Part shown: positions 38,625 to 53,366 of the stretch, piece after piece
Layout of the letters: each line of letters opens with the position of its first letter
Numbering within the stretch: the stretch's first letter is position 1
Source: Lacisediminihabitans profunda
GTDB taxonomy: Bacteria; Actinomycetota; Actinomycetes; Actinomycetales; Microbacteriaceae
Length of the DNA: 64,000 nucleotides
Direction: 5' to 3'
NCBI RefSeq assembly: GCF_008040105.1
Contig: NZ_VRMG01000011.1
Location: forward strand, 1 to 64,000
Translations under genes and position numbers: made by a program
Notes under the pieces: model-generated
What the model was told of the DNA's origin: nothing
Database searches by the model: none
What the model saw: the letters and a program-made list of their open reading frames with translations, nothing else

Positions 38625-40130
38625 TCATCCTGCCAGAGTGAGCACCCCATCTACGCGTCGGGGAACAGATGTGTCGGCGTCGCGCAGTTCGGTCGGCAAT
38701 AGTGTTTCGGGGGCATCCTGCCAAACGAACGGGCGCAAGAAACGCCGCACCGCGGTCACACCAACCGAAGTGTGGAGCGAATTGGTTGCGGGCCACGGGC
38801 CCCCGTGGTGCTGCGCCCAGCTGACTCGGACGCCTGTCGGATAGCCGTTGAAGACCAGTCGACCGGCACGCGGGCTGACCGTTTCGACGAGGGAAGCGAC
38901 GAGTTCATCGTCACCAGGTTCGCTGTGGATCGTGGCAGTGAGCGAATTGGGAATCACTCCGAAGGCGCGATCTACATCAAGGAGATCGTCGTACCAGGCG
39001 ACCACCAGCAGTGGGCCAAACGCCTCCTCCGAAGTCGCCGCGGTGAGGTCTGAGGCGTCTATGGTCAACAATCGCGGTGCGACCTGGAATCCGTCACCTG
39101 AGACTGTTCCCACGGCGCTCACCGCTGCGCGACCAACGCTCTCGATTCGTGATTCTATTTCGCCGAACGATTCAAAAATGCGCGCGTTGAGCAGTGGGTT
39201 GCTGGTTGCGGCATTGACCCGATCGATGATGCCCTCCACCAGCACGCGTCCGGCATTCGTTCGGGGAACGAATGCGATGCCGGGCTTGGTGCACAGCTGG
39301 CCGGATGATGCGGTGAAAGAAGTAAACAGGCCCTCGGCGATGGCCGCGGTTCGCGCTGCCGCTGCCGCAGGCGTGATGATCAGCGGGTTGATGCTGCTGA
39401 GTTCGCCGTAGAACGGGATCGGTTCCTCACGTCCCGAGACGATGTCCATGAGCGCCTGGCCACCAGAAAGTGACCCGGTGAAGCCGACTGCTTTGATGTT
39501 GGGGTCGGCTACCAGCGCCGCTCCGGCCGCGGTGCCGTAGACAATCCCCAGGGTGCCCGCTGGCGCACCGTAGGCGACTGCGGCATTGTTCAGGACTGTG
39601 AAACTGGCGAGAGACACGAGTGGATGCGACCCGTGCGCCTTGAGTACAACCGGGCAGCCTGCCGCGAGCGCCGATGCCGTGTCGCCGCCCGCCACAGAAA
39701 AAGCGAACGGAAAGTTGCTCGACCCGAAGACCGCGACAGGACCGATCGGTATGAGCATTCGCCGCACATCGGGACCGGGACCCATGGGGGTCGGGCCTGC
39801 GTGGTCGATGGCCGCATCGAGGTACCCCCCATCTCGGAGCGCTTCGCCGAACAGTCGGAACTGGAACACAGAGCGGGTCAGTTCGCCGGTGAGCCGTGGC
39901 AGCCCGAGAGCCGTCTCCGCCTCAGCGGTGGCGACAAGTTCGGCGCGGTTCGCCTCGAGGGCGTCGGCCAGCGCGTCGAGGAGCCCGGCCCGCCAAAGGC
40001 GGCTGGACTTCTGGATGGTGGCGAATGCGGTGCTCGCAAGGGAAGCGATTGACGCAACGTCATCGGTCGCGGTGGGCCCGAGGGCGGTGTCCGATTCGAC
40101 AGCTGTCCTCGGGTTAGTCGTGGTAATCAA
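38625..40130 (-). CDS. Alpha-ketoglutarate-semialdehyde-type aldehyde dehydrogenase
   Basis: A 501-residue aldehyde dehydrogenase of the NADP-dependent subgroup used for 2,5-dioxopentanoate. It shows VFGSSNFPFAFSVAGGDTAS, AVGFTGSLSGGQAL, the catalytic glutamate in FYGELSSINPL near residue 245 and the cysteine in ASSGQLCTKPG near 285. TTG 40130 has AGGA upstream. As last gene of the operon it would oxidise alpha-ketoglutarate semialdehyde made by the FAH-family dehydratase two genes upstream, delivering 2-oxoglutarate to the TCA cycle. Known members act in pentose and glucarate oxidation. Confidence 0.87.
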   Translation of the reverse strand: MITTTNPRTAVESDTALGPTATDDVASIASLASTAFATIQKSSRLWRAGLLDALADALEANRAELVATAEAETALGLPRLTGELTRSVFQFRLFGEALRDGGYLDAAIDHAGPTPMGPGPDVRRMLIPIGPVAVFGSSNFPFAFSVAGGDTASALAAGCPVVLKAHGSHPLVSLASFTVLNNAAVAYGAPAGTLGIVYGTAAGAALVADPNIKAVGFTGSLSGGQALMDIVSGREEPIPFYGELSSINPLIITPAAAAARTAAIAEGLFTSFTASSGQLCTKPGIAFVPRTNAGRVLVEGIIDRVNAATSNPLLNARIFESFGEIESRIESVGRAAVSAVGTVSGDGFQVAPRLLTIDASDLTAATSEEAFGPLLVVAWYDDLLDVDRAFGVIPNSLTATIHSEPGDDELVASLVETVSPRAGRLVFNGYPTGVRVSWAQHHGGPWPATNSLHTSVGVTAVRRFLRPFVWQDAPETLLPTELRDADTSVPRRVDGVLTLAG

Positions 40131-40166
40131 GAGATTCCTAACTTTTGTGCATGAAAGAAAAAGGGC

Positions 40167-41213
40167 TCAGGCGCTCTCGCGCGCCACCACGGAGAAGCCG
40201 AGATCGACCATTTCGGATTCTTCGCCGATGCCACTCATGCGAGCGATGAGAAGCTCGCCGGCGCGAGTGCCGATTTCGACGTTGGGAACTGCGACGGTCG
40301 TGAGCGTCGGTAGCAGATGGCGAGAGATCTCAAAGTCTCCAAACCCTGTGATGGCAAGGTCGCCGGGGACGGAAATCCCCCGGCGGCGACATTCGAGAAG
40401 CGCTCCGGCAGCAAAGATGTCGCTGGCGAACATGAGCACGTCGGTCTCGGGGTGCCGTTTGAGGGCGATGTCGAGGAGACGAACTCCGGCATCCATGTCT
40501 ATGACGCCGGTGCCGGAATCGACAACGCGAGGGGGCTCTCCGGGGAGTAGCCGGGCAACGGTTCGAGCGAAACTCTCCTGTCGGTCGAGTGCGCGTGAGT
40601 CACCGGGCTGCAATGATGCAGCGAAGGTCGGGTGTTTGTACCCCTTGCTGACAACATATTCGACAATCGCTTCGATTGCGTCGCTGTTCGAGAACCCGAC
40701 GAGGTTATCGATGGGCTCATCCGTCCAGTTCCATGCCTCGACGATCGGTATGCGTGACTTTCTGAGCAATAGGGTCGCGGCGGGGGTGTGTTTTGTCCCG
40801 ACGATGAAAAGCCCGTCAGGTCGACGACCCATGAACGCGCGAATCAGTTCCTCTTCACGATCGATGCTGTAATCGGTGGCACCGATGAAGAGTTGGTAGC
40901 CGTGCGGGGTCAGCACTGCGTCCAAACCGTGAAGAGCGTCAGCAAAAACCGACGCGCTGATGGTGGGGATGATTGCCGCGATCGTTTTACTTCGATTAGA
41001 GGCGAGGTTGCTCGCAGCGAGGTTCGGCACATAACCGGTCGTGGAGATCGCCCATTGAACCCGCGTGACGGTTCGTTCGGAGACCAGTTCCGGGTTGCGA
41101 ATGGCACGAGAAACCGTCTGCGGCGATACGTTGGCAAGGCTCGCGACGTCGTTCAGAGTCACTGACAGCGTGGCGCGGCGAGTGAGTGGCGGTCCGAGAG
41201 GATCCGCGGTCAC
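40167..41213 (-). CDS. LacI-family repressor of the sugar operon
   Basis: A 348-residue LacI-type regulator: helix-turn-helix VTLNDVASLANVSPQTVSRAIRN and hinge YVPNLAASNLASNRSKTIAAI, then a periplasmic-binding-like domain with GFSNSDAIEAIVEYV and ITGFGDFEISRHLLPTLTTV. GTG 41213 overlaps the dehydratase stop (GTGA), showing the regulator is a true member of the operon. Two palindromes of LacI style (TGCTAGCGCTAACA at 45551 and TGTTAGCGCTAC at 49563) are probable operators. The effector may be an imported sugar or a keto acid; that is inference. Confidence 0.88.
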   Translation of the reverse strand: MTADPLGPPLTRRATLSVTLNDVASLANVSPQTVSRAIRNPELVSERTVTRVQWAISTTGYVPNLAASNLASNRSKTIAAIIPTISASVFADALHGLDAVLTPHGYQLFIGATDYSIDREEELIRAFMGRRPDGLFIVGTKHTPAATLLLRKSRIPIVEAWNWTDEPIDNLVGFSNSDAIEAIVEYVVSKGYKHPTFAASLQPGDSRALDRQESFARTVARLLPGEPPRVVDSGTGVIDMDAGVRLLDIALKRHPETDVLMFASDIFAAGALLECRRRGISVPGDLAITGFGDFEISRHLLPTLTTVAVPNVEIGTRAGELLIARMSGIGEESEMVDLGFSVVARESA

Positions 41214-42394
41214 AGCAGATTTCTTTCGGCCAGGTTTGCCATCAGCGCTGCCACTCCGAACTGCCACGGGGCGCACCTTTCACTAAACTGCACGTGATTC
41301 ACCAGAGTACCCAGCAGCGGGGCCGAAATTCTGACGACATCACCCACGTGATGGGTGAAACCCTGGCCGGGTTCGGCACGGTCAACCACCGGCGCGAACA
41401 TCGTGCCGAGGTACAGCACAACGCCGTCGGGGTATTGGTGATGCTCGCCCATGAGTTGGGCCACGAGATCAGCGGGGTCTCTGCTGATCTGGTCGAGGTG
41501 CGAAGTGGCGTGAAGGGTGAACCCATCATCGCCTTCGATTTGCAGCGTGACGGTCGTCGCCCGCACGTCGTCGAGGCTGAACCCAGCATCAAAGAAGCGA
41601 ATGAACGGGCCGAGAGAGCCCGACGCGTTGTTGTCTTTCGCCTTCGGTAGAAGCAGCGCTGACCGCCCTTCGACATCCCGCAGATTCACGTCGTTGCCGA
41701 GGCTCGCACCGACAATGCGACCGTCCGATGCCACGGCCAGCACTACTTCGGGCTCCGGGTTGTTCCAATTGGAGGTAGACAAAACGCCCACTTCGGTTGC
41801 CGTGCCGACCGTCGCCAAAATCGGTGCTTTGGTGAAGATCTCGGCATCCGGTCCGATGCCCACCTCGAGGTACTGGCTCCACAACCCCTGCTCGATGAGC
41901 AGTGCTTTGAGTTTGATCGCTTCGGCAGAACCTGGGCGAATGATGGAGAACTCGCCGCCTATTTCACGCATGATGTTTTCGCGGATGCTGGCCGCGGCCT
42001 CCACATCCCCTCTCGCACGTTCTTCGATCACGCGTTCGAGCATCGAAACGGCGAACGTGACACCGGCCGCTTTCACGACCTGGAGGTCGATGGGCGAGAG
42101 CAGATACGGCTTGGAGTCGTCACGGGTTTCGGGCACGGTGTTGGCTAGAACATCGGCGAAGCTGCCGAGGCTGTCTCCCTCTGCAGCCGCGAGGGAAGCC
42201 GCGGGGTCGGCCTCTTCGAACAGTTCTCGCATCGTTGCGAATGTTGCGCTGAGGTCAAAGACACCGTCTTCGCGAAAGGCCACAACCGAGGGGCCCTCCA
42301 CCGCCGGATTGAAGACGCGGCCCGCGAGTGAGCCGGCGTACCGATCGATGGGCAGCGCGGCTTCGGTGCCACCAGTCCAATCAGATGAAGTCAT
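41210..42394 (-). CDS. FAH-family 2-keto-3-deoxypentonate dehydratase, XylX-like
   Basis: A 394-residue fumarylacetoacetase-fold protein. Length and sequence (PIDLQVVKAAGVTFAVSMLE, LIEQGLWSQYLEVGIGPDAE, WNNPEPEVVL, LGNDVNLRDVEGRSALLLP, HHQYPDGVVLYLGTMFAP) are those of the XylX type that converts 2-keto-3-deoxy-D-xylonate or L-arabonate to alpha-ketoglutarate semialdehyde, as I recall the Caulobacter enzyme. The neighbouring semialdehyde dehydrogenase supports this. The chelating acidic residues in PEPEV and GNDVN are in place. This gene anchors the pathway as Weimberg-like. Confidence 0.83.
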   Translation of the reverse strand: MTSSDWTGGTEAALPIDRYAGSLAGRVFNPAVEGPSVVAFREDGVFDLSATFATMRELFEEADPAASLAAAEGDSLGSFADVLANTVPETRDDSKPYLLSPIDLQVVKAAGVTFAVSMLERVIEERARGDVEAAASIRENIMREIGGEFSIIRPGSAEAIKLKALLIEQGLWSQYLEVGIGPDAEIFTKAPILATVGTATEVGVLSTSNWNNPEPEVVLAVASDGRIVGASLGNDVNLRDVEGRSALLLPKAKDNNASGSLGPFIRFFDAGFSLDDVRATTVTLQIEGDDGFTLHATSHLDQISRDPADLVAQLMGEHHQYPDGVVLYLGTMFAPVVDRAEPGQGFTHHVGDVVRISAPLLGTLVNHVQFSERCAPWQFGVAALMANLAERNLL

Positions 42395-42411
42395 TGTTGG
42401 GTCCCTTATGG

Positions 42412-43206
42412 TTAGCGACGGTTGTAGAGGCCTTGGCGCTTCTCGGCAAAAGCTGCGCGCCCTTCGGCTGCATCTTCGGTGGCAAGACAGATGGTCTGCA
42501 GGTCGCGTTCGTAGCGAATGGCCTGATCCTGCGGCAGGTTGAATGCTGCGTGCAGGTTCGCTTTCGCCGTTTCGGCAGCGATCGGCGGTCGGGATGCGAT
42601 GGTTTTGGCGAGTGCGATTGCGCGCGGCAGCAGTTCGTTCGGCGCGACAACTTCGCTCGCGATCCCCCATGCCTCGGCCTTCGCCGCGCTGATCGGGTCG
42701 CCGGTCATCAGCATGAGGGCCGCGTTGCTCGAACCGATGGAGTGGGCGAGCAGGCTCGACATGCCTCCCCCGCCAATCCAGCCGAGCTTGATTTCGGGGG
42801 CCGCGAAGCTTGCGGTCTCGGAGGCGATACGGATGTCGCAGGTGAGAGCCGTTTCGAGCCCGCCGCCGAAGGCATAGCCGTTGACGGCCGCGATGATCGG
42901 TTTTCTGAGTGCGGCAATGGCGTCGCAATAGTCACGGCGATTGCCGAAATCGAAGGGTGTTTTGTAGTTGTCGAGTTCGCGAATATCCGAGCCCGCACAG
43001 AACGAACGCTCCCCCGCACCCGTGAGCACGACGGCGCGGACGCCATCCGATTCGTTGCACCATTCGACGGCGCGAACGAGGTCGTCTGACATTTCAGCGG
43101 TGACCGAGTTGAGCTTCTCGGGGCGGCTGATGGTGATGACGGCGACAGAATCGGCCACGGTGAAAAGCACGTTGCTGCTCTGAAGCAAGGGAAGTTCGGT
43201 GGTCAT
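42412..43206 (-). CDS. Crotonase-family enoyl-CoA hydratase/dehydratase
   Basis: A 264-residue crotonase. The oxyanion motif SFCAGSDIRELDNY lies near residue 70. Both acid/base glutamates are kept in AFGGGLETALTCD and FAAPEIKLGWIGGGG, a layout like carnitinyl-CoA dehydratase as well as hydratases. It overlaps the solute-binding-like gene by ATGA and follows a CaiB-type CoA-transferase two genes upstream. Inside an operon otherwise devoted to a sugar acid, it may catalyse beta-elimination from an aldonyl-CoA. That chemistry is inference. Confidence 0.85.
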   Translation of the reverse strand: MTTELPLLQSSNVLFTVADSVAVITISRPEKLNSVTAEMSDDLVRAVEWCNESDGVRAVVLTGAGERSFCAGSDIRELDNYKTPFDFGNRRDYCDAIAALRKPIIAAVNGYAFGGGLETALTCDIRIASETASFAAPEIKLGWIGGGGMSSLLAHSIGSSNAALMLMTGDPISAAKAEAWGIASEVVAPNELLPRAIALAKTIASRPPIAAETAKANLHAAFNLPQDQAIRYERDLQTICLATEDAAEGRAAFAEKRQGLYNRR

Positions 43207-44282
43207 GCTGCTGCTTTCTCTGGGAAGAGTTGATTGAGCGCTTCAAGGGTTGCCGCCGTGGCCGTTCTGTTGATCACGGCTTCGCGAATGATGGCGGATG
43301 CCGCGGACTGCACAGGCACGAACCCAGCAAAGCGCGGACGCACCCAAGCATCGTCGATCGTGGCGAGGGTGTTGCGGTAGAAATCGTGGGAGTCGCGGTT
43401 CACGGCCTCGTTGGTCCAGGCATCCCGCGCTGACGGCTGGCCCTCGTGCTGCGGAATGTAGCGCTGCTGCGCACTGGCCGACATCAGCCAGCGGATATGG
43501 TCGAGCAGTTCGGGCGTGACCTCGCAGCGTGCGCTGATGGCGATGCCTGTGCCGCCGATCACCGAACCGTGCCGGCCGCCTTCTTTCACAACGGGAGCGT
43601 CGCCGAATGCGACAGCGCTGGAGTAATTGACGTAGCCGTAAATGAGCGGGCAGTAGGCGAGCTCGTCGGTGTTCTGGATGAGCTCGAGCAGCGCGATGGG
43701 GTTGAGAGACTCGGTGCCAACGGGCGCTCGGCTGGAAATGTCGGTCATGAGATTGAGCACGCGAATGCCCGTTTCGGGCGAGATGAACGGCGCGCTGCGG
43801 CTCGGCTCTTCACCAATGGCAACCGCAATAGAACAGAACGTGAGAAATGCGTGCGGGCCGGCGAGATTGAGGGCAACGCGGGCGCTGTGCGAGAGGGCGA
43901 CAACGTCATCCCAGGTGGTGGGGATTTCGGAGAGATTCTTGGAGGCGGAGACCTGAGTCGCAGCGTCCAGCGGCAAAGCCCACAGTTTGCCCTCGTAGCG
44001 GTAGCTTTCCAGGCTTGGGCCGACCGCTTCGAAAACATGCGGAAAATACTCATCGAGCGGCAAGAGATGACCGCCCTCGACGGCATCACCAAGATGGGGA
44101 TGATCGAGCACCACGAGATCGTAATTCGCGGCATTTTCGGCAATCGAGCTGGACTCGAAGCCTTCGAGGGGCTGTACCTTCCAGTCGATCGAGAGGGCCG
44201 AGCCGCTGATATCAGCGGCGGCAGACAGCAACGCTGTTCGGCCCCGTGGATGATCCCAAGTGAGACCTGCATACGACGACAT
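43203..44282 (-). CDS. Solute-binding-protein-like cytoplasmic protein, role unknown
   Basis: A 359-residue protein resembling family 1 extracellular solute-binding proteins: YDLVVLDHPHLGDAVEGGHL with LLPLDEYFPHVFE, LWALPLDAATQVSASKNL and TTWDDVVALSH. It starts MSSYAGLTWDHPRG with no signal peptide, no lipobox and no hydrophobic N-terminus, so it should stay in the cytoplasm. It is coupled by overlaps to the CoA-transferase (TAATG) and crotonase (ATGA), not to the ABC genes, which have their own lipoprotein. It may be a substrate-binding or enzymatic partner of the CoA steps. No role is established. Confidence 0.75.
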   Translation of the reverse strand: MSSYAGLTWDHPRGRTALLSAAADISGSALSIDWKVQPLEGFESSSIAENAANYDLVVLDHPHLGDAVEGGHLLPLDEYFPHVFEAVGPSLESYRYEGKLWALPLDAATQVSASKNLSEIPTTWDDVVALSHSARVALNLAGPHAFLTFCSIAVAIGEEPSRSAPFISPETGIRVLNLMTDISSRAPVGTESLNPIALLELIQNTDELAYCPLIYGYVNYSSAVAFGDAPVVKEGGRHGSVIGGTGIAISARCEVTPELLDHIRWLMSASAQQRYIPQHEGQPSARDAWTNEAVNRDSHDFYRNTLATIDDAWVRPRFAGFVPVQSAASAIIREAVINRTATAATLEALNQLFPEKAAA

Positions 44283-45523
44283 TAGGAGGCGGCAGCGATT
44301 TCGACCGATGGTGTTCCGACTGCCTTCGAGTTCAGCAGCTCATCGATGCGCTCCTCGGAGATGCCGCTTTCGGCCAGAATCTCACGCGTGTGCTGGCCGG
44401 TGAGCGGTGCTCCGCGGTAGACCTGCGGTGGGGTTTTGGAAAACTTGTACGGAAACCCGGGTGTCTTCACGAGCCCTTCGGTCGGGTGCTCGTACTCGAC
44501 GAAAGTGCCGTTGTGGGCGATCTGCGGGTCGTTGAGGAGGTCTTCGTAGCCATAGACCGGGCCGGCCCAGATGTTGCTGGCGGCGAAGGCATCCAACCAG
44601 TATTTGTTTGTTTGTGTTTCGAGTTTGGCTGCCGTCTTGCGGTGCAGTTCGTCGCGGTGGGTCCAGCCGTGGATTTCGCTCGACATACTCAGAAAACTGT
44701 CTTCACCGATGATCCTGCCCAGCTCATCGAGGGCTGGCATGGCGAGGGCAATGAAGCCGTCGAGCGTTTTGAACGTGCCGTACGGCGCACGAATGTAGAC
44801 GTGGGCGTGCGGCTCTTCGCTGCGCTCTTGCGGCACTTTGCCGACGGTGAAAACCGAGAGCTCCTGCATTTGCAGTGTGGTGATCGAGTCGAGCATGTTT
44901 ACCGTCACGAGTTGGCCTTCGCCCGTGCGCTCGCGGTGCAGAAGGGCCGCGAGGGCGCCTTCGAACGCCGTGGATGCCGTGATCGCGTCCACCAGATATT
45001 GCCCTGCTGGCGTCGGTGGCTCCCCCGCGCGACCACTCGAATTCATTGCGCCGGACATGGCTTGCAAGAGCAGATCTTGGCCGGGGCGGTCTTTGTATGG
45101 GCCGTCTTCTCCGTAACCCGAGATGGAGATGTAGATGAGTTTGGGGTTGATCGCTTTGAGTGATTCGTAGTCGACGCCGAGTCGCGCTGCGACGCCTGGG
45201 CGGTAGTTCTGCAGGAAGACGTCAGCCGTTTTGACGAGTTCGTAGAGGGTGTCCTTGCCGCCGTCAGACTTGAGATCGATGGCGACCGACCGCTTGTTGC
45301 GGTTGAGGGAAAGAAACGAGACGTTGATCTTGTTGCCTGCGGCCCCGCCGGCGGCGGCGTGACGCTGCCACTCTCCCGTTATGGGTTCGACCTTCACGAC
45401 ATCGGCCCCGAGGTCGCCGAGACGTTGCGCGGCGAACGGGCCGGCCATCGCGATCGAGCAATCGAGCACGCGATAGCCGGCGAGGATGCCGGTGGCTTGA
45501 GAGGTTGAGCCGGTGTCAGTCAT
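44282..45523 (-). CDS. CaiB/BaiF (class III) CoA-transferase
   Basis: A 413-residue family III CoA-transferase. Motifs: LAGYRVLDCSIAMAGPFAAQ with LGDLGADVVKVEP at the start, NRNKRSVAIDLKS near residue 80, and the catalytic aspartate in GQDLLLQAMSGAMNSSG near 160, then the later GAPLTGQHTREIL. ATG 45523 has GAAAGG upstream. It is first in a sub-operon preceded by a LacI-type palindrome 28 bases upstream. The members move CoA between carboxylic acids (carnitine, formate/oxalate, bile acids). Here a pentonate or keto-acid is the suspected acceptor. Confidence 0.87.
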   Translation of the reverse strand: MTDTGSTSQATGILAGYRVLDCSIAMAGPFAAQRLGDLGADVVKVEPITGEWQRHAAAGGAAGNKINVSFLSLNRNKRSVAIDLKSDGGKDTLYELVKTADVFLQNYRPGVAARLGVDYESLKAINPKLIYISISGYGEDGPYKDRPGQDLLLQAMSGAMNSSGRAGEPPTPAGQYLVDAITASTAFEGALAALLHRERTGEGQLVTVNMLDSITTLQMQELSVFTVGKVPQERSEEPHAHVYIRAPYGTFKTLDGFIALAMPALDELGRIIGEDSFLSMSSEIHGWTHRDELHRKTAAKLETQTNKYWLDAFAASNIWAGPVYGYEDLLNDPQIAHNGTFVEYEHPTEGLVKTPGFPYKFSKTPPQVYRGAPLTGQHTREILAESGISEERIDELLNSKAVGTPSVEIAAAS

Positions 45524-45550
45524 GAGGCCTTTCAGGGATGGCAGCGCAAC

Positions 45551-45564
45551 TGCTAGCGCTAACA
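45551..45564. promoter_or_regulatory. LacI-type operator before the CoA-transferase
   Basis: TGCTAGCGCTAACA is a 14-bp palindrome with one mismatched pair, 28 bases upstream of the CoA-transferase start in the 76-base gap after the DUF4432 gene. The same core AGCGCT motif appears at 49563-49576 before the other half of the cluster. It is probably bound by the LacI regulator at 40.2 kb. Confidence 0.65.
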
Positions 45565-45599
45565 TTCAGTCTACTGGGAAGAAGCGGAGCGTGGACTAA

Positions 45600-46718
45600 T
45601 CACTCGGGCTGGCCATAGATCGCCCTGATCGCCGCGCGACTCGCGCTGGTTTCAGCCACACCGTCGAGCACGCGGATCGTCGTGCGATATTCGCGTGACT
45701 CGCCGTGTTCGAGCCAGGTGAGACTGCCGTCTTCCCGCGCCGCCGTCTCTCCCTGAACCCGGTTGGTTGAGGGCTCGAGGCCGAGGGCGTATTGGCCGTC
45801 GCGCAGGTTCTGCCACTCGAAGAAATAGGGCATGGTGGCGGCATCCCAACTCAATTCGATGCCTCGCCCGCCATCACCGCTGATCAGCGCGACCCGGTGA
45901 CGACCATCCGGGCCGGCCACGAGCTCATGCTCGGTGACCTGCTCGACGAAACCGCGAATCGGCTCGGGCAGTATGCGGTAGCCGATGCGCTGCTCGGCAA
46001 TCGAATCCGATTGCCAGAGGTGAGACTTGATCGGCGCGACCACTTCGGAGCCGGCATCCACGTACGGCCAGCCGAAATTGAGGTGATAGAGGTACATATG
46101 CGGGGTCTTCTCGAACCCGAGATTGTCGACAACATCGTGCAGGCGAATCTCTTTGCCATCGAAGTCGACTTCCACAGTTCGGTGCAGTCTCAGATGCTCA
46201 CCGAACGCTGTCGCCTGGATGACCTCGCCCGAAACCTTCAGTGTTCCGCTCTCGCCATCCCAGTGTTCGCCAGCCTCGAGCAGTCGGGCGGGAATTGCCG
46301 TGAGACGGCCGTGCAAGCCATGCGTGACGGTTGGTTTGGGGGGATACGCGTAGTTCGAGGAATCCACTGTTCCACCGAAGAGGGTGTGGTCGAGGCCACC
46401 GCTGACGAGCAGACCGTCGATGGAGCGCAGCCAGCTGAGGCCGCCCTCGTCATTGTGCTCGTGCAGGCCCGGGTGCCGGAAACCATTGCCCGAACGCCAG
46501 CCGAACGGCACGCCCCTGAAGCGTGCGTTGCCGATATCGAGCGCGCGATCAACTAAGAGATCGAACTCGAGACCGGCGGCGGTGCGAACCTCGACGGCTC
46601 GAACACCCCGCTCGGACCCGTTGTCGAGAACCACCTGGCGGATGCCAGCGATGGCCGAGAGGTCGCCGGTTCGGCGTTTCAATTGTGCCGCGCTGAGGTC
46701 GTGTCCAAAAATATCCAT
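45600..46718 (-). CDS. DUF4432 aldose-1-epimerase-like protein
   Basis: A 372-residue galactose-mutarotase-fold protein of the DUF4432 group. Segments: LVDRALDIGNARFRGVPFGW near residue 60, GLDHTLFGGTVDSSNYAYPP, THGLHGRLTAIPA with conserved histidines near 140, MYLYHLNFGWPYVDAGSEV near 215 and MPYFFEWQNLRDGQYALGLEPSTN. It probably handles anomers of the imported sugar or a lactone. Its ATG is 3 bases from the SDR stop, so it is in the same operon. Confidence 0.82.
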   Translation of the reverse strand: MDIFGHDLSAAQLKRRTGDLSAIAGIRQVVLDNGSERGVRAVEVRTAAGLEFDLLVDRALDIGNARFRGVPFGWRSGNGFRHPGLHEHNDEGGLSWLRSIDGLLVSGGLDHTLFGGTVDSSNYAYPPKPTVTHGLHGRLTAIPARLLEAGEHWDGESGTLKVSGEVIQATAFGEHLRLHRTVEVDFDGKEIRLHDVVDNLGFEKTPHMYLYHLNFGWPYVDAGSEVVAPIKSHLWQSDSIAEQRIGYRILPEPIRGFVEQVTEHELVAGPDGRHRVALISGDGGRGIELSWDAATMPYFFEWQNLRDGQYALGLEPSTNRVQGETAAREDGSLTWLEHGESREYRTTIRVLDGVAETSASRAAIRAIYGQPE

Positions 46719-46720
46719 GA

Positions 46721-47476
46721 TTAGTCCATCGTCCAGCCACCGTTGACATTGATCGTTTGACCGGTGACGAAGCTCGAATCGTCTCCCGCTAGGAATGAGA
46801 CCACTGAGGCAAGTTCTTCGTTGGCACCGCGACGCTTAAGCGACTGGTGATCGAGCACAAACTGAGTATAGATTTCGGGGTTGTCGTGAATTTTTTCGGC
46901 GTCCGTGGGAAACGCGCCCGGCGAAACCACATTGACGCGGATGTTGTGGGGCCCTAACTCTCGCGCCAATGCACGCGCCATCGAGACCGAGGCACCCTTC
47001 GTGGTGACGTAGCTCGCAAGCGACGCCCATCCCCCACCCCAGGTGATCGATCCGATGTTGATGATCGAACCGTGCCCGCGCGGCACCATCAAGCGAGCCG
47101 CCGATTGTGCGGCCACAAAGTAGGCGCGCTGGTTGACGGCGACAACGTCGTCGTATTCGGCAATCGGTATCTCGAGAAACGGCGTGTTCGGGTAGATCGC
47201 CGCATTGTTCACGAGCACCGTCACGGGTCCGAACTCGGCTTCGACGGTGCGGATCTCGCGATCGATGGCGTCAGCATCGTGGAGATCACACGTGACGGCG
47301 ATGGCTCGGATGCCAGCATCCACGAGTTGCCGCAGCGTTTCGGTCAGGCCCTCGCCGGCCCGACCGAACGCGGCGATCGAGAATCCGTCCTTCCCGAGGC
47401 GCAGCGCCGTGGCGCGCCCTAGAGCGCCGGCGGCACCGGTGATTATTGCCGTGCGATTCGGGAGGACGGAGGTCAT
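46721..47476 (-). CDS. SDR-family sugar or polyol dehydrogenase
   Basis: A 251-residue classical SDR: TGAAGALGRATALRLG near residue 12, VLVNNAAIYPNTPF, catalytic YVTTKGASVSMARALAREL near residue 155 and the C-terminal SSFVTGQTINVNGGWTMD. It lies between the mutarotase-like gene and the TIM-barrel gene with almost no spacing. A first oxidation of the sugar to a lactone, or of an alcohol group later, is likely; the order relative to the Gfo/Idh enzyme cannot be told. Confidence 0.85.
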   Translation of the reverse strand: MTSVLPNRTAIITGAAGALGRATALRLGKDGFSIAAFGRAGEGLTETLRQLVDAGIRAIAVTCDLHDADAIDREIRTVEAEFGPVTVLVNNAAIYPNTPFLEIPIAEYDDVVAVNQRAYFVAAQSAARLMVPRGHGSIINIGSITWGGGWASLASYVTTKGASVSMARALARELGPHNIRVNVVSPGAFPTDAEKIHDNPEIYTQFVLDHQSLKRRGANEELASVVSFLAGDDSSFVTGQTINVNGGWTMD

Positions 47477-47477
47477 C

Positions 47478-48395
47478 TCAGATACCGTATTTCTTCAAAG
47501 TGTCGTCAACAAAGCGCTTGGCGCGGGGAACATCGCTCTCATCGAGGTGCTCGATGATGAGCGGTGCGTTTGGATGCTTCTGGCTCAACCTTTGCAGGTA
47601 GAGGTCATAGTTGAGCTCACCAAGGCCGGCGGCGGGCAATTCGATCTCGCCAACACCGCGAAATGTGTGCGACTCGGGGGCATCGTCGTTGCCAATGCTC
47701 GCGTGCTTCTCGGATTTGTCTTCGCCCGATCGCTTCACATCTTTGGCGTGCGCGATCTTGATGCGGTCCGTGATGGGGTGGTCGAATACTTCATTGAGCA
47801 CGGCATCCATATCGTCGATGTTGTGCGATTCGAAGTAGTTGGTCGGGTCCATGAGAAGTTCGATGCCGGGGCCGGAAACGTCGTCGAAGAGGCGGACGGT
47901 CTCATCGAGCGAACCGATCACGTTGTTCACATAGGTCTCGAGCAGGAACACTGCGCCGTGGTCGTGAGCGGTCTGTGCGAGGTCCTCGAGCACCAGGCGC
48001 GCCGCGTCGTAACCCTCGGGTGTGTTGTTCTTCGGGTCGGGCGACCAGTCGCTCTCCGTGTTGAAGGTGCCCGATTCGCTGATCACGTAGGGGGTGCCGA
48101 ACTTGCGGGCATTGCGCAGGATCTCTTTGAGGTAGCCGACTCGCCGGCCGCGCTCGTCGAGATCCGGGTGCACGATGTTCGTGTAGGCAGAGATGCCGCA
48201 GATGGGCAGATTGTTGTCCCGGAAAGTGTCGCGAACCCGTTTGGCCTTATCGTCTGTGATCTGGCCGGCCGAGAGGTCGATGTCCTTGAACTGGAGGTCG
48301 AGCTGAACGGTGTTGAACCCGAGGCCGCGAATGGTTTTCGCCGTCGTTTCGAGGTCATACGGAAAGTATCCGCTGAAGATTCCTACCTGGATCAT
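47478..48395 (-). CDS. Sugar phosphate isomerase/epimerase-like TIM barrel
   Basis: A 305-residue xylose-isomerase-like AP-endonuclease-2 fold protein. Metal-site residues typical of the family are present: Glu in LLETYVNNV near residue 150, Asp in LLMDPTNYFESHNI near 185, His in KIAHAKDV near 215 and Glu in IIEHLDESD near 285. ATG 48395 has AAGGAG upstream. Such enzymes epimerise or isomerise keto-sugars, keto-acids or inositol derivatives. It follows the Gfo/Idh dehydrogenase, a common pairing in oxidised-sugar pathways. Confidence 0.85.
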   Translation of the reverse strand: MIQVGIFSGYFPYDLETTAKTIRGLGFNTVQLDLQFKDIDLSAGQITDDKAKRVRDTFRDNNLPICGISAYTNIVHPDLDERGRRVGYLKEILRNARKFGTPYVISESGTFNTESDWSPDPKNNTPEGYDAARLVLEDLAQTAHDHGAVFLLETYVNNVIGSLDETVRLFDDVSGPGIELLMDPTNYFESHNIDDMDAVLNEVFDHPITDRIKIAHAKDVKRSGEDKSEKHASIGNDDAPESHTFRGVGEIELPAAGLGELNYDLYLQRLSQKHPNAPLIIEHLDESDVPRAKRFVDDTLKKYGI

Positions 48396-48417
48396 TTCGT
48401 AGTGCTCCTTCTTTTTG

Positions 48418-49503
48418 CTAGTGAGAGAGGGAAAATTCATTGAGCTTCACGGGCCGGTTTTCGGCAATTGAGCGGTACCCGGCTTCGACCAGCGCCATCG
48501 TCTTGACGTTGTCGGCCACGGTCAGGGCGGGCTCCGTTGCCGACTCGATCGCATATTGCAGCTGCTCCATCACGCCGATGAACGCGTGTGGGAACCAGTG
48601 GGTATCCCAGCTCGGGCTTACCCACTGGCCGCTGGTCGAAATGTTCGACGAATACCGAATAGTGGATGGCACACCAGTTGCCCAACCGATGGTGCCCTGT
48701 GCGACTCCCGCCGTGCCCTCCACCCGCCACGTGATGTAGTCATCCGATACGAAGCCATCGGTCTTGGGGCCGCCCCACACGTCTTCGAGCGAGACAGCGA
48801 TGAGGCCACTCTCAAAACGCAGGGTCGACACCACGATGCCGTCGGTGTGGGCGAAGTGGGTACGTGGATCTGTGCGGGCCGCGGTGAAGATATCGATCGG
48901 TTCGCCGAACAGAAAACGGAGGGCATCCAGATGGTGAACGCTCATGTTGGCGAGCGTCAGGCGATCGTACTCGCTCAAGAAATCTTGCCAGTGTGGCACG
49001 GCGCGCATGTCAATCGAGGCGATGACGGGTTCGCCGAGTTCGCCCGCATCGAGAATTTGTGAAAGCACCTGGATGCTCTGGTCGTAACGCATGTTCTGGT
49101 TGACCGAGAGAATCTTGCCGGCGGCGGCCGCTTCATCCCGCAGCGTGATCGCCTCTTCGAGGCTGAGAGCAAGCGGCTTTTGCGCAAGGATGCCTTTGAT
49201 GTGCGGCTGCGTGAGGGCGTGGCGAATGAGATCGGGTTGCAGATCGGGCGGAAATGCGATGTCGAGAATCTGGATGCGCTCATCTTCGATGAGTTCGCGG
49301 GGCGTGGCGTGCACTGTACCGATGCCGTAACGCGCTGCCACCGCCGACGCTTTGGCTTGCGTTCGGGAGGCAATTGCCACCACATCGAACCCAGCCTCGG
49401 CGTAGGCCGCAAGCTGCACTTCGGAGACGATCATGCCGGCACCGATCACGCCGATGCGCTGGGTTCTGGCTCGCACTACGACGTCTGGGGTGATGGTTGT
49501 CAC
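48418..49503 (-). CDS. Gfo/Idh/MocA-family oxidoreductase
   Basis: A 361-residue NAD(P)-dependent dehydrogenase: Rossmann start RIGVIGAGMIVSEVQLAAYA, AFPPDLQPDLIRHALTQ, the catalytic-lysine motif as AQKPLALSLEEA (the usual EKP is QKP here) and the NMSVHHLDALRFLFGEP histidines near residue 190. GTG 49503 has GAGAGGAA upstream. It is the first gene of the long minus-strand operon, divergent from the ABC importer. It probably oxidises the incoming sugar or sugar acid. Confidence 0.87.
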   Translation of the reverse strand: MTTITPDVVVRARTQRIGVIGAGMIVSEVQLAAYAEAGFDVVAIASRTQAKASAVAARYGIGTVHATPRELIEDERIQILDIAFPPDLQPDLIRHALTQPHIKGILAQKPLALSLEEAITLRDEAAAAGKILSVNQNMRYDQSIQVLSQILDAGELGEPVIASIDMRAVPHWQDFLSEYDRLTLANMSVHHLDALRFLFGEPIDIFTAARTDPRTHFAHTDGIVVSTLRFESGLIAVSLEDVWGGPKTDGFVSDDYITWRVEGTAGVAQGTIGWATGVPSTIRYSSNISTSGQWVSPSWDTHWFPHAFIGVMEQLQYAIESATEPALTVADNVKTMALVEAGYRSIAENRPVKLNEFSLSH

Positions 49504-49562: not shown

Positions 49563-49590
49563 TGTTAGCGCTACTGGTAACGCTATTACA
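49563..49590. promoter_or_regulatory. Tandem LacI-type operators in the divergent promoter
   Basis: TGTTAGCGCTACTG (49563-49576) and TGGTAACGCTATTACA (49575-49590) lie side by side between the Gfo/Idh and lipoprotein genes. The first shares the AGCGCT core with the site at 45551; the second has the dyad GTAAcgctaTTAC. Their place allows one repressor to control both directions. Confidence 0.6.
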
Positions 49591-49688: not shown

Positions 49689-50765
49689 ATGAGGCACTTC
49701 AGTACCCATGTCGTGAGACGAGGCGTTCTACCCGCGCTCGCAACAATTGCAGCGATTGGCCTCCTTTCCGGTTGCAGCAGCGCACCCGGCGCAGCAACAG
49801 CAGCAGCCAAAACCGATAAGAAGTTCGTGATCGGGTTCGAGCAGCCTCTGGGCGGCCAGGCTTGGCGCGAAACCGGCCTTGCGGCCCTTCAGGCGCTCGC
49901 TCACTCCCCCGCCTACAAAGACAAAGTCACCCTCAAGATCGTTCGCACCAACGACAACGATGCGGCTCAGCAAAACGCAGCAATGCAGAACCTCATCGCC
50001 TCGGGTGTTGACGCCATTCTCTTCGACCCGGCCTCATCATCCGGAGCCAATGCGGCCATCACCCAGGCGACCGCCCAGAAGATTCCGGTGATCGCCAACG
50101 GCGGCCCCTACGACAGCAAAGACGTCTACGTGGTCTCGACCGACTGGGGCAACGCTGGCACGATCGGTGCGAAGTGGCTTCTGGCCAACCTCGGCACAAA
50201 CAAGAAGGTGGCCGTTCTCGAGGGCCTCGCTGGCGTTCCGCTCAACGATGGAACGATGCCTGGCGTCCTCAAGATACTGAAGGACGGCGGCGCAGAAATC
50301 GTGGCGCAAGGCACCAACGGCTGGAACGAAGCGACAGCGCAGCAGAACATGGCGACCATTCTTCGTTCCAACCCCGATGTTGGAGGGGTGTACTCGTTCC
50401 TCACTGGCGGCCAGGGTGTTCCCGAGGCGTTCAAGGCTGCTGGCCTCAAGTTCGTGCCGACCGTTGGTGGTTCCGGCTACAACGGCGAAGCGTGTGAGCT
50501 TTCGAACAACGCCGCAGCCGGGCTCAAAGGCGACATGGTCTTCGGTCAGCCCGCCATTTATGCCAAGGGCCTTGAGCAGGCAGTGAAGCTCCTCGAAGGC
50601 AAGAAGATCGCCAAGACTCAGCTCTTCCCGCCCCTCGAAATCACCGCTGCGAACGCCAAGACCTATTGCCTGCCAGACCAGGCGGCAAACTTTCAACTCG
50701 GCTACGACTTCCCCGGCCTCGACATCAAGGTCGCCGATGTCGTGACCTACTACCAGGGCAAGTAA
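49689..50765 (+). CDS. Sugar ABC transporter solute-binding lipoprotein
   Basis: A 358-residue family 2 (ribose-type) binding protein. The signal peptide ends with lipobox GLLSGCSS (Cys near residue 29). It then shows FVIGFEQPLGGQAWRETGL, the SGVDAILFDPASSSGANAAI hinge-side motif and DVYVVSTDWGNAG. AAAGGAG precedes the ATG. It delivers the sugar or polyol to the ATPase and two permeases that follow. Confidence 0.9.
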   Translation: MRHFSTHVVRRGVLPALATIAAIGLLSGCSSAPGAATAAAKTDKKFVIGFEQPLGGQAWRETGLAALQALAHSPAYKDKVTLKIVRTNDNDAAQQNAAMQNLIASGVDAILFDPASSSGANAAITQATAQKIPVIANGGPYDSKDVYVVSTDWGNAGTIGAKWLLANLGTNKKVAVLEGLAGVPLNDGTMPGVLKILKDGGAEIVAQGTNGWNEATAQQNMATILRSNPDVGGVYSFLTGGQGVPEAFKAAGLKFVPTVGGSGYNGEACELSNNAAAGLKGDMVFGQPAIYAKGLEQAVKLLEGKKIAKTQLFPPLEITAANAKTYCLPDQAANFQLGYDFPGLDIKVADVVTYYQGK

Positions 50766-50793
50766 CCATCTCACGGCAAGTTAGGCACCATAA

Positions 50794-52371
50794 ATGACTG
50801 TACTGACAGCGGATGGCGTCGCGACACCTGTCGCGGCGCCGCCCGCGCCCTCGAACGCATTGCTGGTTGTTCAGAACCTCACCAAACATTACGGACCCGT
50901 CGTGGCTGTGCAGGATGTCTCGTTCTACTGCCTGCCCGGCGAAGTCCACGCGCTCATCGGCGAGAACGGTGCCGGCAAGAGCACCATCGCCAAGATGCTC
51001 GCAGGCGCTGTTGTGCCAACCTCGGGCAGTGTGACGGCGGGCGGAATCGCCCTCGTTTCTGGCCGCATCAAAGACGCCCGCCTCGCCGGTGTCAGTTGCG
51101 CCTTTCAAGAACTCGCCCTTGTGCCCGATTGGACTGTGGCCGAAAACCTGGCCCTGCCCGACGGCGCCGCGTTGCGCGGTTTCTCGCAGCGCAAATCGAT
51201 TCACGCAGCAACGGCGTTGCTCGCGGGGCTCGAACTCGATCACATTGACGCTCGCGCACTCGTCTCGAGCCTTTCGCTCGCCGACCGCCAGTTCGTAGAA
51301 ATCGCGCGCGCCATCACCGGCGCGCCTAAGGCACTGATCCTCGATGAGGCATCCTCGGCCCTCGGCCCTCCCGGGGTGGAATGGCTGTTTCGCCGCATTC
51401 GCGAACTGACCGCGCTCGGCACAAGCGTGATCTATGTGTCGCACCGGCTTAGCGAACTGGCTGTCATCGCCGATCGCGGAACCGTGCTTCGCGACGGTCG
51501 GGTTGCTGGCGAGTTCAGCCGAGGCAACTGGAGCGAAGACCAGCTCATTTCGATGATGGCGGGGCGCGAAGCTTCCAAAGCCTTTCCTTCATCGCCACCG
51601 CTGCCCGTGAGTTCGAAGCCAGATGTTCTGCGGATTGAGAACCTGGTCGCCGAGGGGCTCAACGGCATTTCGATTCTCATCAAGCCCGGCGAAATTCTGG
51701 GAGTCGGCGGTTTGCAGGGGCACGGCCAGCGCGAACTTCTTCGCGCGCTATTCGGCGCGACGCCGGCCTCAGCAAGCAAGTGGATGCTCGGAGGCAGGCC
51801 CGTTCGCCGCCTCACCCCGGTGAAGGCGGTGCGGCTCGGAGCCGGTTATGTGCCCGAGGATCGCAAAGTCGAGGGGCTCGCGCTCGAGCTCGGAGTGGGT
51901 GAAAACCTGCTCGCACCGTGGTTGAAACCTTTTCAGCGTGGAGGGCGACCACGACTTGCCAGTGAGAAGACGTGGATCTCCGGGGTGATCGCATCCCTCT
52001 CTATTCGCACGCGCGGCCCGCTCGAGAACGCAGGCGCTCTCTCGGGTGGCAACCAGCAGAAGATCGTCTTCGGGCGCTGGACCGACCGGAGCCGAACGCT
52101 GATTCTGCTGCACGACCCCACCCGCGGCATCGATGTGCGGGCGAAGCAAGAACTGTATAAAGCGATCATCGAGCTCTCCCGCCAGGGCGTTGGCGTGCTT
52201 TGGTTCTCGACCGAGGTCGAAGAACTCGTCAACATTTGCCACCGCGTTGTGGTGCTCTACGAAGGCAAAATCGCCGACGAGCTCGAAGGCGACCGGCTCA
52301 CTGCTGAAGCCGTAGTCGGGGCGGCCGTTGGCGTGGCTTCACCGGGCGTCTCACAGAGAGAGATTTCATGA
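50794..52371 (+). CDS. Sugar ABC transporter ATPase, two-domain (RbsA/XylG-like)
   Basis: A 525-residue protein with two ABC modules. The first has Walker A GENGAGKSTIAKML near residue 50 and LILDEASSALGPPGVE as Walker B, with a degenerate signature (SSLSLADRQFVEIAR). The second has a GVGGLQGHGQRELL-type degenerate Walker A, as usual in this family, plus signature LSGGNQQKIVFGRW near residue 415 and ILLHDPTRGIDVRAK. It overlaps the permease by ATGA. Confidence 0.92.
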   Translation: MTVLTADGVATPVAAPPAPSNALLVVQNLTKHYGPVVAVQDVSFYCLPGEVHALIGENGAGKSTIAKMLAGAVVPTSGSVTAGGIALVSGRIKDARLAGVSCAFQELALVPDWTVAENLALPDGAALRGFSQRKSIHAATALLAGLELDHIDARALVSSLSLADRQFVEIARAITGAPKALILDEASSALGPPGVEWLFRRIRELTALGTSVIYVSHRLSELAVIADRGTVLRDGRVAGEFSRGNWSEDQLISMMAGREASKAFPSSPPLPVSSKPDVLRIENLVAEGLNGISILIKPGEILGVGGLQGHGQRELLRALFGATPASASKWMLGGRPVRRLTPVKAVRLGAGYVPEDRKVEGLALELGVGENLLAPWLKPFQRGGRPRLASEKTWISGVIASLSIRTRGPLENAGALSGGNQQKIVFGRWTDRSRTLILLHDPTRGIDVRAKQELYKAIIELSRQGVGVLWFSTEVEELVNICHRVVVLYEGKIADELEGDRLTAEAVVGAAVGVASPGVSQREIS

Positions 52372-53366
52372 CTCTCCCCACTGCACCAAGCCGGGCCTGG
52401 AATGCGCACGGCGTCACACGCCTGCGCCGCGAGGGTGCCGTTGCACCGGTCGCCGCGTTTCTCGTGTTCTTCATCGTCTACGTGATCATCAACCCCGGCC
52501 TGCTCACCCGTTTTCAGCTGCAATCGGCGGCAAATCTCGTGGTGCCGCTCGCGCTTGCAGCCCTCGGCCAGCTCATCATCGTGCTCGTCGGCGGCATCGA
52601 TATCTCCATCGGGGCCATCATGAGCCTCTCGAATGTGGTCTTCGCCCTCTCGATGGAGCACCTTCCCGTACCACTGGCGATGCTCGCCGGTATCGGCGCT
52701 GGACTCGCTTGCGGCCTCTTCAACGGATTCCTGGTCGCCTACCTCCGGCTGCCAGCGATCGCCGTCACCCTCGCCAGCGCATTCATCATCGGCTCGATCA
52801 CCCGCGAGATCATGGACCGCCCGGGTGGCGGAATAACCCCAGCGTTCTACCTCGCAACGAGCGGCGAACTGCTGCCTTATCTACCGATCTCCATCTTCTG
52901 GCTCGCCATCGTCGGTGTGGCGCTGTGGTTGGTTCTGCAACGCTCGGCCCTCGGTCGCCACATCTATGGGGTCGGTTCGAGTGCCGACAGCGTGCGCGCA
53001 GCCGGCCTCAACGCCCGCGGTGCCCAACTGGCTGCGTTCGCCCTATCGAGTGTGATCGTCTCGTTCGGCGCGATTATGCTCGCCGGCAGCACCATCACCG
53101 GCGACCCGCGAAGCGGTGACTCTTACCTGCTCAGCTCTATTGCTGCCGTCGCACTCGCCGGGGCTGCCTTCACGGGCGGTCGGGGCAGCATCCTCGGCAC
53201 CATCCTCGCTGCCTGCACGCTCGGCCTCGTGGGCAGCCTGCTTTTCTTCGCCGGCGTCAATTCTTATTGGCAATACGTGATCTCGGCCCTCATCGTCATC
53301 TCCGTGGTGGGCGTGCCCGTGATCTGGCGCACTACCTACCTCGCGATCAGACGGGTTCGATCATGA
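52368..53366 (+). CDS. Sugar ABC transporter permease 1 (RbsC-like)
   Basis: A 332-residue permease with about eight or more membrane segments. Family motifs: VLVGGIDISIGAIMSLSNVV near residue 75 and the loop LGRHIYGVGSSADSVRAAGL near 195, then AVALAGAAFTGGRGSILGTI. It overlaps both neighbours by ATGA. Two different permeases indicate a heterodimeric channel. Confidence 0.92.
   Translation: MTLPTAPSRAWNAHGVTRLRREGAVAPVAAFLVFFIVYVIINPGLLTRFQLQSAANLVVPLALAALGQLIIVLVGGIDISIGAIMSLSNVVFALSMEHLPVPLAMLAGIGAGLACGLFNGFLVAYLRLPAIAVTLASAFIIGSITREIMDRPGGGITPAFYLATSGELLPYLPISIFWLAIVGVALWLVLQRSALGRHIYGVGSSADSVRAAGLNARGAQLAAFALSSVIVSFGAIMLAGSTITGDPRSGDSYLLSSIAAVALAGAAFTGGRGSILGTILAACTLGLVGSLLFFAGVNSYWQYVISALIVISVVGVPVIWRTTYLAIRRVRS

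Follow-up and report, generated by a model that had tools for sequence, protein, structure and literature searches.

In a 64,000-nucleotide stretch of the Lacisediminihabitans profunda genome (GCF_008040105.1, contig NZ_VRMG01000011.1, positions 1-64,000, forward strand; hereafter the window), we identified an operon on the minus strand, read from 49503 to 38625, that very likely encodes a module for handling sugar acids as coenzyme A (CoA) derivatives. Its core consists of a CaiB-type family (class) III CoA-transferase (CaiB, 44282..45523), a protein with the solute-binding-protein fold (SBPx, 43203..44282) and a crotonase (ECH, 42412..43206), followed by a XylX-like 2-keto-3-deoxy acid dehydratase (FAH, 41210..42394) and, at the end of the operon, an aldehyde dehydrogenase (ALDH, 38625..40130) of the alpha-ketoglutarate-semialdehyde-dehydrogenase type. 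Whether the operon as a whole serves non-phosphorylating sugar oxidation, with the sugar acid handled as CoA thioester and dehydrated by CaiB, SBPx and ECH, appears to us evenly balanced. The original prediction had proposed such a CoA-dependent, Weimberg-like route, in which a CoA-transferase and a crotonase take the place of an aldonate dehydratase. The shared unit and the residues of this proposal stood, whereas aldonate dehydration as the CoA step is plausible, could equally well prove right or wrong, and is unproven.

Along the minus strand the gene order is Gfo, TIM-barrel protein, SDR, DUF4432, CaiB, SBPx, ECH, FAH, LacI regulator and ALDH, and an Rbs-type ABC importer diverges from the operon, starting at 49689. 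From these genes we infer the following order of reactions. The importer would bring in a sugar, which the Gfo/Idh/MocA dehydrogenase (Gfo) and the TIM-barrel protein would remodel and which the DUF4432 mutarotase and the SDR dehydrogenase would oxidise to an aldonate. CaiB with cytosolic SBPx would load CoA onto this aldonate through Asp179, and the crotonase would eliminate the 3-hydroxyl to give a 2-hydroxy-2-enoyl-CoA, the tautomer of a 2-keto-3-deoxy-acyl-CoA. CaiB would then move the CoA to the next aldonate and free the 2-keto-3-deoxy acid, which would be converted by FAH to 2,5-dioxopentanoate and by ALDH to 2-oxoglutarate.

Conservation of the trio and its sister sets

The coordinates proposed earlier for CaiB, ECH, FAH and ALDH hold, and their families were confirmed by Pfam and PDB matches. 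CaiB matches CoA_transf_3 (1.7e-105), and its nearest PDB entry is a succinate-hydroxymethylglutarate CoA-transferase (2.1e-62). By NCBIfam models and PDB matches it is closest to transferases, not racemases, and with 155.1 bits against the L-carnitine CoA-transferase model NF002914 (cut-off 413) it lies outside the carnitine-specific enzymes. ECH matches ECH_1 (2.3e-64). FAH, whose Pfam match is weak, matches the PDB entries 9kkt (2.4e-118) and 2q18 (6e-14), the latter a 2-keto-3-deoxy-D-arabinonate dehydratase, and its family and residues predict a 2-keto-3-deoxypentonate dehydratase. ALDH matches Aldedh (3.8e-38) and, by phmmer, 1eyy (2e-97); it falls in the 1eyy/3v4c branch, reaches 76.6 bits with the 2,5-dioxovalerate dehydrogenase model (cut-off 750) and, with FAH as its neighbour, would act on alpha-ketoglutarate semialdehyde. 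The starts at 45523 (CaiB) and 42394 (FAH) are internal starts of longer mechanical open reading frames, and that of CaiB is consistent with an operator-like site at 45551..45564.

At positions that we take to be the families' catalytic sites, the four enzymes are strongly conserved. D179 of CaiB is invariant in all 88 aligned rows, and both crotonase glutamates noted in the original prediction, E118 and E138, are present in 90 of 90. By alignment, CaiB and ECH keep without exception the residues that CoA transfer and beta-elimination are expected to need. In FAH, E214 and E216 occur in 58 of 59 rows and D240 and K253 in 57 of 59, the remaining rows being gaps; C280 and E243 of ALDH are invariant (32/32).

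The original inventory of the operon was incomplete. It lacked SBPx, which accompanies CaiB more constantly than any other gene, and also omitted the LacI/GntR-type regulator, DUF4432, the TIM-barrel protein and the divergent importer. The overlapping starts that it described for CaiB and ECH are real, but both are carried by the SBPx gene in between (CaiB/SBPx, TAATG; SBPx/ECH, ATGA), and CaiB and ECH are not neighbours.

Among 297 genomes of the window's order searched with SBPx, the protein was found in 17, 12 of them with a close form (~50% identity); a distant form (31-37% identity) occurs at 12 loci in 12 genomes, including the window's own. A profile scan of a species-genome collection gave at least 594 pattern matches with 496 relatives among the matches listed, and the best 80, from records titled Actinomycetota, Pseudomonadota and Acidobacteria, were kept as loci. 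Since the gene caller made shadow open reading frames (c16, c34), neighbours were counted by tblastn. CaiB adjoins SBPx in 77 of the 80 loci and ECH lies directly downstream of SBPx in 77; FAH is present in 47 and ALDH of the window's type in 21. IlvD/EDD was matched in none of the 80 loci in the stretches fetched, 13 of these being shortened by contig ends. Twenty-six of the 47 FAH-bearing loci are free both of IlvD and of matches to two enolase-superfamily queries. Gfo and the TIM-barrel protein occur together in 26 of the 80, all with DUF4432 and SDR and one with an enolase-superfamily match. Together with the window and 11 loci from the order sample, these make 92 crotonase-type loci (three fetched twice: L066, L067 and L088 equal L029, L031 and L036), with ECH in 90, FAH in 59 and enolase-superfamily matches in 37. 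IlvD/EDD was matched in none of these 92 and in none of 19 MaoC-type loci described below. Several sphingomonad loci (L094, L097, L103, L105 and others) carry, close to the trio, a D-2-hydroxyacid dehydrogenase and a P-loop protein that was read as a glycerate kinase without a family match above cut-off, with GH28-like and beta-helix proteins alongside. This is perhaps a pectin-like setting with a different end route.

A tree of 72 FAHs (midpoint root; the three duplicate loci excluded and two further trio FAHs dropped by a length filter) places 54 FAHs from trio loci, together with two near ones (L167, L168), in one supported group (100/98) that excludes the 16 remaining FAHs, all from the window's order, and mixes Actinomycetota and Pseudomonadota. 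L167 sits close to a contig end and L168 is an FAH alone. Trio and non-trio labels change three times on this tree, compared with 16.1 times on average in shuffles. This grouping indicates that FAH has travelled with the trio.

SBPx itself gave an AlphaFold2 model of the solute-binding-protein fold (pLDDT 92; SBP_bac_1, 27.4 bits, cut-off 26), with MalE-type sugar binders as best Foldseek matches (TM ~0.8, 14% identity). No signal peptide or lipoprotein signal was visible when the starts of the 80 loci were read by eye, no predictor being run. In 78 of the 80 the nearest start codon lies at most 24 residues from a conserved TWDH motif, by a rule that is biased toward short N-termini; two were not resolved. 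Of these 78, 27 have a gap of -4 and 15 a gap of -1 between the CaiB stop and the SBPx start. With the SBPx start overlapping or abutting the CaiB stop in most loci, little space is left for a longer N-terminus. SBPx may be a cytosolic protein that holds the sugar acid for CaiB, as a substrate-holding partner.

A sister set, CaiB-SBPx-MaoC, is located in L-fucose/L-rhamnose-like clusters. In the order sample, each of the 12 loci with the distant SBPx combines CaiB, SBPx, MaoC and an amidohydrolase, and 11 also have Gfo, the twelfth (L250, only 5.3 kb) being cut off; nine of the 12 were used at first, including for the 19-locus MaoC-type counts, and three were added afterwards. GH95 gave a clear match in nine, a fragment in two and none in L028, and no enolase-superfamily or IlvD match was found in ten, L028 and L248 having enolase-superfamily matches. 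L028 (G000:C117:85500-105400), a paralogous set in the window's own genome, combines SBPx and CaiB with RhaM, two MaoC-like genes, a protein resembling RraA and three matches to the enolase superfamily. Matches were found in 139 and 145 plasmid records, of which 18 stretches were examined (L231 and L234 nearly identical). Bacteroidota plasmids add the MaoC-type set, two of them with RhaT; on L228 and L232, two CaiB-type and two binding-protein genes stand with Gfo, MaoC and RhaT, possibly encoding a heteromeric transferase. In Martelella the crotonase and MaoC sets lie side by side, and in Methylobacterium nodulans MaoC-CaiB-SBPx is found beside PdxA and a four-carbon acid sugar kinase. On S. 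meliloti/medicae megaplasmids there are bare CaiB-SBPx pairs, the annotated ones having a GH25 lysozyme gene on one side and either traA or an IS110 element on the other. The common theme of the sister sets is sugar acids.

The substrate of crotonase is L-3-hydroxyacyl-CoA, whose configuration at C3 is shared by D-xylonate, L-arabinonate and D-galactonate; MaoC types act on the opposite one, found in L-fuconate and L-rhamnonate. GH95 occurs in 7 of 19 MaoC-type versus none of 92 crotonase-type loci, and RhaT in 2 of 19 versus none of 92. A match between hydratase family and the C3 stereochemistry of the acid is no more than suggestive. We tentatively propose, at somewhat less than even confidence, a general CoA-thioester dehydration of sugar acids in records of four phyla, in which CaiB and a cytosolic binding-protein fold presenting the acid would be joined by a hydratase chosen by C3 configuration: crotonase for xylonate/arabinonate-like acids and MaoC for fuconate/rhamnonate-like acids, replacing iron-sulfur or enolase-type dehydratases.

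Operator-like sites and the surrounding genes

The intergenic regions between Gfo and the importer in relatives share a palindrome, from which a search pattern was built; it comprises some Gfo sites and none of those upstream of CaiB. Across 12 loci compared, a site with at most one mismatch lies between DUF4432 and CaiB in eight, upstream of Gfo in nine and at the LacI/ALDH junction in five, where it falls within the aligned 5' end of ALDH. Per locus, mononucleotide shuffles gave 0 to 0.30 sites, and L080 has no such site. In the window, the LacI-type site lies before CaiB (45551..45564) and a weak second one with two mismatches in the divergent promoter region (49563..49576). The whole 4.0 Mb genome has two places with at most one mismatch, the one before CaiB at 45551 (contig C12) and one on C128. 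At two mismatches it has 14 sites versus 120 for the reversed control, so the site at 49563..49576 rests on its position only. The operator case rests on position repeated across relatives, and these patterns support a link by the operator-like site between the CoA enzymes and the importer genes. A sigma-70 promoter scan found no promoter.

The operon's first gene encodes Gfo (48418..49503, minus strand; PF01408 8e-17, 5uhw 4.7e-22), followed on the same strand by the TIM-barrel sugar epimerase/isomerase-like protein (47478..48440; PF01261 1.2e-23, predicted model pLDDT 81), whose Foldseek matches are D-tagatose 3-epimerase, UlaE and YcjR. Neither this fold nor the Gfo matches point to a specific sugar. 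The SDR dehydrogenase (46721..47476), a candidate aldose 1-dehydrogenase, matches XylB-type and gluconate 5-dehydrogenase NCBIfam models, both below cut-off; with Gfo/Idh/MocA it makes up the sugar dehydrogenases already described, which Pfam confirmed. Aldose-1-epimerase-like DUF4432 (45600..46718) matches PF14486 (1.2e-88) and 3ty1 (1.4e-20). The LacI-family regulator (40167..41174) is nearest to the NCBIfam model GntR (308.6 bits, below the cut-off of 400). On the plus strand, the Rbs-type sugar ABC importer (49689..54364) comprises a binding protein, an ATPase and two permeases, the second permease from gene reading only, and its orthologues diverge from Gfo in L030, L048, L049, L054, L056, L061 and L078.

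Third-codon-position G+C falls from ~0.9 to ~0.74 right of ~36.9 kb, which places the operon within a stretch of different composition (36900-64000) whose pattern resembles that of a horizontally gained catabolic island. Further along, at 54732-58740 on the minus strand, lie genes for an HpcH/HpaI aldolase, a 309-residue protein without Pfam match, a D-2-hydroxyacid dehydrogenase and a periplasmic binding protein, possibly a second sugar-acid route, and additional open reading frames extend to ~63600.

Conventional dehydratases and rival explanations

Across the window and the following 20 kb of contig, IlvD/EDD and enolase-superfamily queries gave no match at E <= 1e-3. The absence of an aldonate dehydratase of these kinds from the window, as originally claimed, is thereby confirmed within the queries used, and the idea of an overlooked dehydratase there was rejected. 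That absence near the trio nevertheless proves the case was rejected after a control: among 18 FAH loci without the trio, a conventional dehydratase lies within ~10 kb in three and none is nearby in 15, which makes the absence weak evidence. In two of the three (L172, L173) an enolase-superfamily enzyme, Eno1, is paired with ALDH-FAH. Another enolase-superfamily partner, EnoB, occurs in 19 of the 80 trio loci. In all 23 close rows, and by eye also in seven more distant ones (one row not resolved), its dehydratase dyad is missing both Asp and His, which form a pair in talarate/galactarate dehydratase, its nearest relative of solved structure. EnoB is therefore doubtful as the missing dehydratase; the same test gave the opposite result for the proteobacterial MaoC-type loci.

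Several observations besides this control weigh against dehydration of the aldonate by the trio. Six proteobacterial MaoC-type loci (five Alphaproteobacteria and one labelled Roseateles; two nearly identical, and the L236 stretch without MaoC itself) hold an enolase-superfamily enzyme with KxK and Asp/His intact in the five read, the sixth being 99% identical to one of them, so that a conventional dehydratase can coexist with the set. The dyad is also kept in the enzymes of L028 and of the trio locus L093. Beyond the window, among other DEHYDRATASES, the genome holds two IlvD/EDD genes, one that reads as DHAD and one of sugar-acid type, the latter in a locus of apparent rhamnose type, where a kinase and an aldolase-dehydrogenase fusion were recognised by eye and an SDR and a further FAH-family protein by Pfam, as well as 12 MR_MLE (enolase-superfamily) matches, the weakest probably enolase itself, and an Eno1 relative of ~60% identity (L028 3424-4755). 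RhaM is near 8 of 19 MaoC-type and 10 of 92 crotonase-type loci, so the match between hydratase and sugar is loose. In Martelella (L227 16415-18446) the crotonase-set CaiB is followed directly by ECH, and the single SBPx, in the nearby MaoC set, may serve both CaiB sets; the four S. meliloti/medicae pairs (L225, L226, L238, L239) have no hydratase. No lactonase was recognised among the operon genes. Taken alone, the window has three operator matches (both strands of one palindrome and one other) versus 0.79 expected, and 6 of 100 shuffles score as high. 2-Oxoacyl-CoA esters are, moreover, unusual intermediates.

In a rival explanation that we consider rather unlikely, a conventional dehydratase is encoded elsewhere, and the CaiB-SBPx-hydratase set works downstream of it or in parallel on a sugar-derived acid of this pathway, such as a 2-keto-3-deoxy acid or a side product. 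The dyad-intact enzymes beside MaoC-type loci, the IlvD-type and Eno1-type genes elsewhere in the genome and the frequent separation of dehydratases from FAH all speak for it. Against it, the operator-like places with at most one mismatch, on C12 (at CaiB) and C128, are not on contigs with IlvD or MR_MLE matches, and EnoB has lost its dyad. Among 26 hand-picked trio genomes, eight have a single IlvD/EDD match and one has none; the eight genes share 79-88% identity with the DHAD of the window's genome, compared with 36-38% for its sugar-type gene. In G041, a 100%-complete genome on a single contig that carries this operon too, a DHAD (80% identity) is the sole IlvD/EDD gene. Three of its MR_MLE matches exceed the cut-off and were taken for galactonate dehydratase, mannonate dehydratase and MenC, none being of the Eno1 kind; a fourth is weak and probably enolase.

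Two further rivals have less in their favour. Epimerisation of the sugar acid by the CoA enzymes before an ordinary dehydratase, through elimination and re-addition or a racemase-like CaiB, is very unlikely: family III includes acyl-CoA racemases, and L102 and L121 carry a MaoC-like match beside the trio, but CaiB is closest to transferases and keeps Asp179, and elimination at C3 turns a 2-hydroxyacyl-CoA into an enol, which then ketonises. That the trio degrades an acid foreign to this pathway, for instance an acyl or aryl group freed from a glycoside, is highly improbable. In its favour, fatty and aromatic acid routes typically employ acid-CoA enzymes, L231 and L234 have aromatic and thiolase genes nearby, and L230 has an AMP-binding protein beside it; yet the operon proteins scanned with Pfam include no acyl-CoA dehydrogenase, thiolase or ligase, the operator-like site is common to the sugar importer, and lactonases, mutarotases, GH95 and C4 acid-sugar genes repeatedly accompany the trio or the pair. 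The original prediction had itself allowed that the two CoA enzymes serve a separate acid. Adjacency, the operator-like site, the FAH group, the residues, the absence of IlvD/EDD and the DHAD-only genomes make this unlikely, and that they are unrelated passengers was rejected on conservation, operator-like sites and the FAH tree. Adjacency, operator-like site and FAH tree equally uphold the claim that the CoA enzymes belong to one unit with FAH, and in Actinomycetota also with ALDH.

Relation to known systems

The original prediction knew of no described pathway of this kind, and we found none in the open-licence PMC literature, nor, partly by narrow word searches there, a description of the CaiB-SBPx-hydratase set. 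This gene set is widespread but unstudied in bacteria and seems to attach CoA to sugar acids, perhaps to let an enzyme of the fatty-acid kind dehydrate them where the customary sugar-acid dehydratase is lacking from the operon. If aldonate dehydration by the trio is correct, CoA chemistry taken over from acid catabolism would dehydrate sugar acids with no need for an oxygen-labile iron-sulfur cluster; annotation that seeks IlvD, EDD or enolase-type dehydratases would miss such pathways in soil and plant-associated bacteria; and proteins named 'extracellular solute-binding protein' that look non-extracellular would gain a function. Even if the exact step differs, the CaiB-SBPx pair recurring in sugar-acid operons of four phyla marks a clear, testable gap.

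The operon resembles the Weimberg pathway in having FAH and ALDH of the right families, with mutarotase-like and SDR genes upstream. It differs in that CaiB-SBPx-ECH stands in the position of the IlvD/EDD or enolase-type aldonate dehydratase, which is absent. In E. coli, CaiB and CaiD dehydrate carnitine by a CoA-transferase and a crotonase, CoA passing from the product to the next substrate. The operon shares with this system a family III CoA-transferase with catalytic Asp and a crotonase with two Glu, and by analogy CoA would again pass from product to next substrate; unlike it, the operon has SBPx in between, a sugar context and a CaiB below the cut-off of the carnitine model. SBPx has the fold of MalE-type extracellular binding proteins (TM ~0.8), whereas it shows no visible signal peptide and its start overlaps or abuts the CoA-transferase gene. 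The sister clusters recall the oxidative L-fucose pathway in their GH95, Gfo dehydrogenase and amidohydrolase, which may be the lactonase, but carry CaiB-SBPx-MaoC where a fuconate dehydratase would be expected.

For deoxyribonate oxidation in Klebsiella michiganensis, deoxyribonyl-CoA has been proposed as an intermediate, with a CoA-transferase in the cluster, and a CoA-synthetase, a dehydrogenase and a thiolase have been proposed to cleave the ester (PMC6365646, 2019). In that proposal, too, a sugar acid is degraded as its CoA ester, whereas the passages of PMC6365646 considered here describe no crotonase dehydration and no FAH. As far as these passages go, deoxyribonyl-CoA is the one precedent that we found for CoA-bound breakdown of a sugar acid, and is itself a proposal.

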